A stretch of DNA of 27,629 bases from a virus. Within the stretch, counting starts at the first letter, position 1, and every line of letters starts with the position of its first letter. The translations under genes were made by a program, and so were the position numbers. Shown piece after piece: positions 20,184 to 22,296 of this stretch. The notes beneath the pieces were generated by a model. It made no database searches. It had not been told where the DNA came from and worked only from the letters and a program-made list of their open reading frames with translations. The stretch lies in IMG/VR virus record IMGVR_UViG_3300017767_000096, positions 1 through 27,629 of that record. The stretch is one strand, 5' to 3'.

Positions 20184-21608
20184 ATGTTTCAATCCGAAAG
20201 ATTGCAGGAAAAGTGGGCACCACTTCTCGACTATGATGGTCTTGATTCAATCAAAGATTCTCACCGTCGTGCTGTAACCGCAGTCCTGTTAGAAAACCAA
20301 GAAAAATTCCTCAAAGAGGAAGCAGCATTCTCATCAGGTATCAACCTGATGGAAACCCCCACCATGAACACCAACAGTGGTGCTTCTTCAGCTGGTTTCT
20401 CAGCTGATGCAACCGCCGCTGGTCCTGTTGCTGGTTTCGACCCCGTTCTGATCTCCCTGATCAGACGTGCAATGCCTAACCTGGTCGCTTATGACTTGGC
20501 TGGTGTTCAACCAATGAACGGTCCTACTGGACTCATCTTCGCAATGAGATCCCGTCTACAAGATCAGAATGGTGCTGAGACCTTCTTCGACGAAGTCGAT
20601 ACAGCATTCTCTGGTCAGGATAAGAACCGTGACGTAACTTCTGGATTCGCAGACGCAGCCGCTGGTATTGGTACTACTGCACAAAATGGACCAAACCCAG
20701 CTGTACTAAACCCTGTTGGAACAGCTACCTCTACCGCATATAATGTCGGTGGTGGTATGAGAACCGACGACGCTGAGAATCTTGATGGCACTGGTAACAA
20801 TGCCTTCAACCAGATGGCTTTCTCTATCGAGAAAGTTACTGTAACGGCTAAGTCTAGAGCACTGAAGGCTGAGTACAGTTTAGAACTGGCTCAAGACCTT
20901 AAGGCTATCCACGGTCTGAACGCTGAAGCCGAATTGGCTAACATCCTCTCAACAGAAATTCTGGCTGAGATCAACCGTGAAGTCATCAGAACAATCTACA
21001 AGGTTGCTGAACAAGGCGCTGTTTCTAACACCGCTACTGCTGGTGTCTTCGACCTGGACGTTGATTCCAATGGTCGTTGGTCCGTTGAGAAGTTCAAGGG
21101 TCTTCTGTTCCAAATCGAAAGAGACGCTAACGCGATCGCCCAAAGAACTCGTAGAGGGAAGGGCAACATGGTTCTGTGTTCCGCAGACGTTGCTTCCGCA
21201 CTTACGATGGCTGGTATCCTGGATTACACTCCAGCACTGAACTCCAACCTGAACGTAGATGACACCGGTAACACCTTTGCTGGTACGATTAACGGTAAGT
21301 TTAAGGTCTACATTGACCCATACGCCGCTAACCTCACTTCAGGTAACTCAGCTGGTGGTAACCAGTACTATGTTGTTGGTTATAAGGGTTCTTCCCCTTA
21401 TGACGCTGGACTGTTCTATTGTCCTTATGTTCCTCTCCAGATGGTTCGTGCCGTCGGTGAGAACTCCTTCCAGCCAAAAATTGGCTTCAAAACCCGTTAC
21501 GGGATTGTCGCTAACCCATTCGCTGAAGGTGTTACTCAAGGCCTCGGAAGACTCCGTGTTAACTCCAACCGTTACTACAGAAGAGTTGCTGTTAAGAACC
21601 TCATGTGA
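20184..21608 (+). CDS. 23: Major capsid protein gp23
   Basis: HK97-fold major capsid protein of the T4 gp23 family, 474 residues (T4: 521). The N-terminal delta region (SERLQEKWAPLLD ... AVLLENQEKFLKEE) is removed by gp21; the likely cut is after Glu57 in LME/T, which fits the (L/I)-x-E rule. Conserved parts are DPVLISLIRRAMPNLVAYDLAGVQPMNGPTGLIFAMRSR, KSRALKAEYSLELAQDLKAIHGLNAEAELANILSTEI and FKVYIDPYAA through YKGSSPYDAGLFYCPYVPLQM to FKTRYGIVANPF. Codons are more C- and G-rich than in neighbouring genes, as expected for high expression. There is no late core in the 43-base gap upstream, so it probably depends on the gene 22 promoter. A strong terminator follows. Confidence 0.98.
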   Translation: MFQSERLQEKWAPLLDYDGLDSIKDSHRRAVTAVLLENQEKFLKEEAAFSSGINLMETPTMNTNSGASSAGFSADATAAGPVAGFDPVLISLIRRAMPNLVAYDLAGVQPMNGPTGLIFAMRSRLQDQNGAETFFDEVDTAFSGQDKNRDVTSGFADAAAGIGTTAQNGPNPAVLNPVGTATSTAYNVGGGMRTDDAENLDGTGNNAFNQMAFSIEKVTVTAKSRALKAEYSLELAQDLKAIHGLNAEAELANILSTEILAEINREVIRTIYKVAEQGAVSNTATAGVFDLDVDSNGRWSVEKFKGLLFQIERDANAIAQRTRRGKGNMVLCSADVASALTMAGILDYTPALNSNLNVDDTGNTFAGTINGKFKVYIDPYAANLTSGNSAGGNQYYVVGYKGSSPYDAGLFYCPYVPLQMVRAVGENSFQPKIGFKTRYGIVANPFAEGVTQGLGRLRVNSNRYYRRVAVKNLM

Positions 21609-21609
21609 T

Positions 21610-21714
21610 ATGAGTGGATGTTGTGGGGCTGGATGTCCCACTTGTCCTTTCAGACCCCCATCTCGGGGGTCTTTTTTATGCTTACTGATAAATACTAAAA
21701 AAGAGTGCCGATAG
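21610..21714 (+). CDS. 34-residue CCGxGCxxCP micro-protein after gp23
   Basis: A short ORF whose ATG starts one base after the gp23 stop (TGATATG) and whose TAG ends immediately before the gp3 ATG. It begins MSGCCGAGCPTCPFRPP. The cysteine cluster C4-C5-G-A-G-C9-P-T-C12-P matches the CCGxGCxxCP pattern of DUF5522 and of 'oxidoreductase-like' N-terminal motifs, where the cysteines are presumed to bind metal. The exact fit between gp23 and gp3 and this non-random motif argue for a real gene. Against it, an intrinsic terminator (21652-21677) lies inside, so terminated transcripts lack its stop codon. It could be a true micro-protein, a leader peptide controlling read-through, or chance. Confidence 0.55.
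   Translation: MSGCCGAGCPTCPFRPPSRGSFLCLLINTKKECR
21652..21677 (+). terminator. Intrinsic terminator after gene 23
   Basis: AGACCCCC (21652-21659) pairs with GGGGGTCT (21665-21672) around loop ATCTC, followed by five more Ts (21673-21677). This is the only textbook rho-independent terminator in the window. It separates the very highly expressed capsid gene from gp3 and the recombination genes. Confidence 0.92.
21687..21694 (+). promoter_or_regulatory. Late promoter element before gene 3
   Basis: GATAAATA ten bases after the terminator and 20 bases before the gene 3 ATG. Predicted transcription start is near 21700. It would restart transcription of gp3-uvsY after termination behind gene 23. 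Confidence 0.7.
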
Positions 21715-22296
21715 ATGGCGACAAGAAAAAGACAGGATAGAGATCCAACAAAAAAAGCTATTCCTACTTCACAACCAGAAAATAGAAGTTTCCTAATTCC
21801 AAATAGTTTTGGGTTTACTGTTGAAAGATCTCCTACAGTAGGTTTCTTTGGTAGTGTCATTAATGTACCAGGATTTACCCTGGGTGTTGTCGCTCAATCT
21901 ACCTTCCTAAAGGACATTCCAAGACCTGGTGAGATTCTATCATTTGAAGATCTTACTTTGACATTCATGGTTGATGAGGGACTTCAAAATTACTTAGAAA
22001 TTGATAAGTGGATGAGAGGACTTGGTTTCCCTGAGGATATTCAACAGATTTATGACTTGCAGGATCAATCTGACATTGATCGTATTGGTTTAAATATCTA
22101 TTCCGATGCTACTCTGACAATTTATAACAATCAGATAAAACCAGCATTTAGAGTTATATTCAAAGATCTGTTTCCCTACTACTTAAGTCCTCTTGAGTTT
22201 AATGCACAGACATCTGAAGCTGAAGCCTTGACATGTCAGGTATCATTTAAGTATTCTATCTACACTATTGAGCCAGGTGCTGGCGATTGTTGCTAA
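21715..22296 (+). CDS. 3: Tail completion and sheath stabiliser protein gp3
   Basis: A 193-residue protein that I assign to the T4 gp3 family (176 residues in T4), which finishes the tail tube tip. Supporting stretches are FTVERSPTVGFFGSVINVPGFTLGV, DIPRPGEILSFEDLTLTFMVDEGLQNYLEIDKWMRGLGFP and LEFNAQTSEAEALTCQVSFKYSIYTIEP, which look like a tail-tube-related fold. As I recall, marine T4-like phages place gene 3 between 23 and uvsY, unlike T4, and this layout fits. The C-terminus ends GDCC with two cysteines. The stop overlaps the uvsY start. Since gp3, gp15 and gp19 share folds, the assignment is by position and memory of the family. Confidence 0.78.
   Translation: MATRKRQDRDPTKKAIPTSQPENRSFLIPNSFGFTVERSPTVGFFGSVINVPGFTLGVVAQSTFLKDIPRPGEILSFEDLTLTFMVDEGLQNYLEIDKWMRGLGFPEDIQQIYDLQDQSDIDRIGLNIYSDATLTIYNNQIKPAFRVIFKDLFPYYLSPLEFNAQTSEAEALTCQVSFKYSIYTIEPGAGDCC

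Follow-up and report, generated by a model that had tools for sequence, protein, structure and literature searches.

A probable portable microprotein gene with four putatively metal-binding cysteines overlapping the 3' ends of cyanophage genes

Does a reading frame of only 34 codons, lodged between the major capsid gene gp23 and the following gp3-like gene of a virus, represent a gene in its own right and, if it does, which part of it is the gene and how would ribosomes reach it? The locus lies in a 27,629-nucleotide stretch of viral DNA that was analysed as a whole (the window; IMG/VR record IMGVR_UViG_3300017767_000096), the relevant features of which are collected in Table 1. The last codon of gp23 is ATG and its TGA stop codon (21606-21608) is followed by a single base (21609), after which the micro-ORF encodes MSGCCGAGCPTCPFRPPSRGSFLCLLINTKKECR and is itself abutted, with no gap, by the ATG of gp3 at 21715. 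On reading the DNA, the ORF coordinates and the gp23/gp3 spacing given in the first-pass annotation proved to be exact. None of the PHROG profiles matches the micro-ORF. The downstream gene matches a PHROG described as 'tail tube', and the homologous stretch of DSL-LC02 is annotated as encoding a tail completion protein.

Table 1. Features at and around the micro-ORF (positions are those of the window).
Feature	Coordinates	Strand	Basis or remark
gp23 major capsid protein, 474 aa, upstream gene	20184..21608	+	PHROG 138 major head protein, E=1e-171
Frame +1 relative to gp23, 151 open codons across the gp23 3' end into the micro-ORF	21259..21714	+	
Micro-ORF, 34 codons, ATG 21610 to TAG 21712-21714	21610..21714	+	
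Conserved core GCCGAGCPTCPFRPP, codons 3-17, C-C-x3-C-x2-C	21616..21660	+	Protein-level selection across relatives
Small hairpin inside the core, GTGGGG-CTGGATG-TCCCAC	21623..21641	+	No covariation support among carriers
Intrinsic terminator of the gp23 transcript	21652..21677	+	AGACCCCC-ATCTC-GGGGGTCT, then T run
Putative late promoter for gp3, GATAAATA	21687..21694	+	Match to NATAAATA
gp3-like tail completion protein, 193 aa, downstream gene	21715..22296	+	PHROG 45 'tail tube', E=1e-32

The micro-ORF falls into two dissimilar halves. Only codons 3-17 are conserved, with the consensus GCCG[A/S]GCP[T/D]CP[F/Y]RP across copies, and this core and its relatives are referred to here as the module. 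The second half consists of a terminator and a late promoter and is without conservation. The stem-loop of the terminator, which is the top-scoring one of the region, spans codons 15-23, its 5' arm encoding the R-P-P of the core, and terminators are found 3' of gp23 in nearly all relatives, whether the module is present or absent. The published cyanophage late promoter consensus, NATAAATA (PMC2984593), is matched across codons 26-29. Beyond the terminator, the sequence is variable among relatives, save in the near-identical L099. The 34-residue ORF, proposed at first as the unit, therefore has to give way to its core.

The core was found to be widespread among phages. With the 34-residue product as a tblastn query, 109 phage records were matched, 105 of them from cyanophages (S-RIM12, ACG-2014a, d and g, and others), with E values down to 5e-10. 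The features listed under these matches were either none or a neighbouring gene, and in none of the nine annotated phage regions examined is the core marked as a separate CDS, which bears out the suggestion that annotation has overlooked it. A degenerate DNA pattern search of IMG/VR, the contigs of which may contain errors, returned at least 120 matches and placed the core on more than 100 contigs. When 96 unique cores are compared, differences occur at rates of 0.094, 0.084 and 0.495 at the first, second and third codon positions, respectively. Pattern searches bias which copies appear, and the codon statistics lean on the pattern-free sites and on the gp23-linked subset. For the codons that the first search pattern did not cover, namely those of F, R and P and of the Gly that precedes CC, the rates are 0.063, 0.083 and 0.373, the F, R and P codons being partly conditioned by one later scan that did require F/Y-R-P. 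The Gly preceding CC and the FRP following the motif are both retained, although the first pattern left them free. Among 14 gp23-linked representatives, Gly0, Pro13 and Pro14 display third-position variation only and site 4 is encoded by GCN, AGY and TCN codons, while among the unique cores Ser occurs as both AGY and TCN at one site and Arg as both AGR and CGN at another. Because the R and P codons also form the terminator arm, selection is seen more cleanly at Gly0 and site 4. The core is under protein-level selection.

Outside phages the module is nearly absent: a stricter pattern gave a single match among 84,980 bacterial and archaeal species, and plasmids gave none. The single match (L398; NZVE01000039.1) is filed as a Rhodobacteraceae metagenome-assembled genome; the other genes on the contig are phage-like, and it is probably a cyanophage contig binned into that genome. 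A chance ORF, to which the shortness of the frame and the terminator and promoter sequence in its second half would lend themselves, has a negligible probability and was rejected, given the protein-level conservation across phages and contexts, the codon-position pattern of the cyanophage homologues and the near-absence from cellular genomes. The initial judgement that such a four-cysteine ORF is not fortuitous is thereby upheld, and among carriers neither the cysteines nor the frame were seen to be lost. An element that acts as structured RNA or DNA without being translated, such as part of a 3' UTR or the target of an endonuclease, would fit the fixed place before terminators, the two hairpins in the window and the homing endonucleases that adjoin some copies (L067, L337 and L352). 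Such an element is nevertheless highly improbable, as variation is concentrated at third codon positions, no Rfam match was found up to E=1 and two-sided change is seen in only one of 13 consensus pairs; an RNA element was rejected on the lack of both an Rfam match and covariation.

The distribution of the module does not follow that of the capsid locus. In two scans of gp23 loci that were selected without requiring the motif, it was present at none of 117 loci in one and at three of 80 close relatives in the other, and it was found within 1.3 kb of three of 110 phage psbD loci. One group of copies lies 3' of gp23. Other copies lie at the 3' end of the psbA/psbD operon (S-CAM4, ACG-2014d, e, g, h and i, and S-MbCM6), directly 3' of psbD (L039), 3' of purM (AIRS_C; L052) and 3' of HNH or GIY-YIG endonuclease genes (L337, L352 and L067). 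In L067 gp23 and its module are followed by a GIY-YIG endonuclease gene, behind which lies another module copy that has diverged and begins with GTG, and in L508 a variant with GCYDCP replacing GCPDCP is located 429 nt 3' of psbD and has its own ATGs. The copy number in nine complete phages is one each, with two in ACG-2014g. The copy of ACG-2014a/S-MbCM100 is linked to gp23 and has no start close by, that of S-CAM4 is linked to psbD and has an ATG, and ACG-2014g has a copy in each of the two settings. The gp23 tree implies 24 changes between presence and absence of the module, 11 of them on well supported branches, and no decayed copies adjoining gp23 were seen, presence being all or none. 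The module is sporadic, and has been gained and lost independently of the gene that it follows. The proposal that it is conserved with gp23-gp3 cannot be sustained, given its rarity at gp23 loci and its presence 3' of many unrelated genes; as for relatives with a conserved gp23, the expectation that cysteines and frame are kept is borne out by the carriers, but the whole module is commonly absent.

What is constant is the setting. The module occupies the extreme 3' end of a transcription unit, where it either lies between the stop codon of the upstream gene and the terminator or overlaps them; it is usually in frame +1 relative to that gene, and most carrier genomes hold a single copy. The reading considered probable is that of a portable and probably metal-binding Cys4 microprotein gene of about 20-40 residues that overlaps the end of the upstream gene, with 21616-21660 as its gp23-linked copy in the window. 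Ribosomes that have just read the upstream gene would translate the module, entering through internal, non-AUG start codons inside the 3' end of that gene, of which the TTG at 21586-21588 in frame +1 of gp23 is a candidate, or by reinitiation where an ATG follows the upstream stop, as in the window. The DUF5522-like C-C-x3-C-x2-C spacing suggests that the four cysteines may bind one metal ion or iron-sulphur cluster (Zn or Fe-S), and the product would then be a small metal or redox factor made with the capsid and photosynthesis mRNAs.

Of 69 distinct gp23-linked copies, 67 are in frame +1 relative to gp23, and the spacer after the gp23 stop codon measures 1, 4, 7 or 13 nt, each of these lengths being 1 mod 3. 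Copies of the L026 type, which are the exceptions, begin with a GTG that overlaps the stop codon of gp23 (GTGA), and other-phase copies elsewhere likewise have their own start, with an ATGA overlap in L001 and L052. The ATG of the window, taken at first as the start, is found in a small part of the gp23-linked copies, the rest of which keep the core in frame without it; it changes twice on the gp23 tree, is confined to one or two clades and was rejected as a conserved start. No ATG, GTG or TTG occurs within 12 codons upstream in 21 of the 69 copies. Counting against the microprotein-gene reading, no start codon is conserved in the gp23-linked copies, and on the tree the occurrence of a start codon does not go with that of the module.

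The coding sequence of gp23 was compared between carriers and non-carriers of the module, with counts that partly use short ORFs at contig ends, where single loci may be misassigned. At matched GC3, frame +1 is closed within the last 12 gp23 codons in one of 68 carriers versus 27 of 103 non-carriers (p=4e-6), and frame +2 openness displays no such difference; with relatedness controlled, the frame +1 effect keeps the same sign but is not significant (3.5 pairs to 0, median p 0.25). Start codons in frame +1 are likewise commoner in carriers (48 of 67 versus 49 of 99 open frames, p=0.006), but no link between start codons and the module was found in independent pairs on the tree, and their role as a conserved entry was rejected once relatedness was controlled. 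Taken as sequence evidence, these comparisons say that the reading would enter the core from within the upstream gene.

The main rival of the microprotein gene is +1 frameshifting, in which a fraction of ribosomes would shift +1 at or near the upstream stop, so that gp23, PsbD and other proteins gain a Cys4 C-terminal tail. Frameshift extension of capsid and tail proteins has a precedent in the Listeria phage PSA (PMC5009743), and the constant +1 phase despite a variable spacer, the open upstream frame in 67 of 68 carriers and the many copies without a usable start are all in its favour, as are L310 and L067, in which an in-frame stop shortly upstream is followed by no ATG, GTG or TTG. However, the copies share no shift site: the codons before the stop include ATG, TTC, GAA, CTC and GCA, among others, all three stop codons are used, and neither a common stimulator nor a covarying structure was found. 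The tree-controlled test, moreover, is directional only, and the copies in other frames with their own ATG or GTG indicate that the module is able to serve as a gene in its own right. In the psbD operon the phase has another source, as it follows from 'nnT AGA GGA', the Arg/Lys codon of the module after T (T AGA, T AAG) supplying the upstream stop; this cause is unavailable for gp23. The psbD-operon copies concerned (L120-type, L123, L002, L009 and relatives) have the upstream TAG or TAA embedded in the conserved Arg/Lys codon, and the stop is thus shared by two genes in different frames. A literature search found no cyanophage paper on 'programmed frameshift'. Frameshifting is regarded as unlikely, and the microprotein gene as the better account.

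The other end of the frame raises a separate difficulty. Every one of the 68 gp23-linked copies that were scored stays open through the U-run of the terminator and meets an in-frame stop only after it, and a terminated mRNA would therefore be non-stop; the earlier idea that the product is one of the most translated microproteins of the infection is left unsupported, as terminator-ended transcripts lack a stop in frame. This missing stop is accounted for by none of the readings. In the other group, which is not gp23-linked, 58 of 85 copies stop before the U-run. An attenuator-like leader peptide, in which translation of the Cys codons over the terminator decides read-through to the next gene, is suggested by the presence of four Cys codons in nine that overlap an intrinsic terminator. 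It is considered very unlikely: G, P, F and R are as conserved as Cys although codon sensing would not need them, no conserved alternative (antiterminator) pairing was found (one of 13 pairs with a two-sided change), gp3 has its own late promoter and psbD-operon copies often end before the terminator, 58 of them before the U-run. Rather unlikely, too, is a start-less cassette that is also stop-less on the terminated transcript. Cyanophages would append such a Cys4 module to genes unrelated to one another (those for the capsid protein, photosystem II D2, purM and endonucleases), at their 3' ends, and express it by entering frame +1 at the gene end, giving a minority of proteins a metal-binding tail or releasing a free peptide by an undescribed route, and in one lineage a secreted phage protein appears to have its signal peptide encoded by the same DNA in a different frame.

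The last point concerns a set of loci that the first search pattern also collected, out of frame with a signal-peptide gene. At L037, L005, L612, L666, L675, L689 and about 20 further loci there is a gene for a secreted phage protein that contains an HEGWH motif, and the stretch encoding the signal peptide (LVAAAAVALPALSDP) gives a related reading, GCCGSGCPTCPFRP..KR*, when translated in a different frame. The GCCGSGCPTCPFRP-type reading is present in nine of 63 members of this secreted-protein family. Random synonymous coding produced the pattern in seven of 2.4 million draws; these agreed with known copies at 16-18 of 25 free sites, and the observed readings at up to 22. The reading may be a true overlapping copy (overprinting); these copies are set aside and have no bearing on the main microprotein claim.

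A phage-restricted microprotein family would thus have been missed by annotation in well studied cyanophages, beside their capsid and photosynthesis genes. Its out-of-frame position over a stop codon and a terminator makes it a natural test case for ribosome entry into an overlapping frame and, if the cysteines bind metal, the module would provide a lead on the handling of iron or zinc by cyanophages during infection.

Among known systems, the frameshift-extended capsid gene is similar in that it, too, ends in out-of-frame sequence by which the major capsid protein could be lengthened. The module copies differ in having no shared shift-prone codon or stimulator, in following unrelated genes as well and in that they can have their own start. 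A microprotein of L587, MKTKCCQFGCPNCPWGF, resembles the module in being 34 residues long with CC-x2-GC-P-x-CP, but has its own ATG, displays CCQF and CPWGF where the module has CCGx and CPFRP, and was found once; this distinct microprotein (MKTKCCQFGCPNCPWGFKLPKQKEKQNDKFGNTR) is coupled to psbD by a TAATG overlap and matches DUF5522 with E=7e-4. No solved relative was matched in the PDB. The Oxidored-like family (PF09791) carries a CCGxGCxxC-type motif, which the phage module shares. Its profile gave weak matches to the clear DUF5522 proteins L247 and L305 only, and none to the phage microproteins even at E<=10.

The closest family is DUF5522 (PF17653), on which no paper was found in the literature. 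Every carrier peptide that was tested has it as the top Pfam hit (E 6e-4 to 0.17), and the CCGxGCxxCP[F/Y] signature is present in all carrier cores except for rare variants such as GCITCP and GCYDCP. The scores of the window ORF and its relatives, however, are 12.4-20.2 bits versus a gathering cut-off of 25, and coverage falls short of the full domain, being mostly of model positions 30-47 of 48 and of 18-45 at best. The likeness to DUF5522 pointed out in the first-pass annotation thus holds for the motif but stays below the cut-off for membership, and the module is best described, from sequence comparison, as DUF5522-like rather than as a member. While the CCGxGCxxCP[F/Y] core is shared, the N-terminal part of the domain is absent or unrecognisable in the phage module. 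The clear DUF5522 proteins L247 and L305 (49 and 52 bits) contain CCGSGCRHCP[F/Y], with R-H where the phage module has P-T/D or P-N, and the FRP that follows the motif is a feature of the module unlike these proteins. The DUF5522-like core of the phage module may, in turn, help to assign a function to DUF5522.
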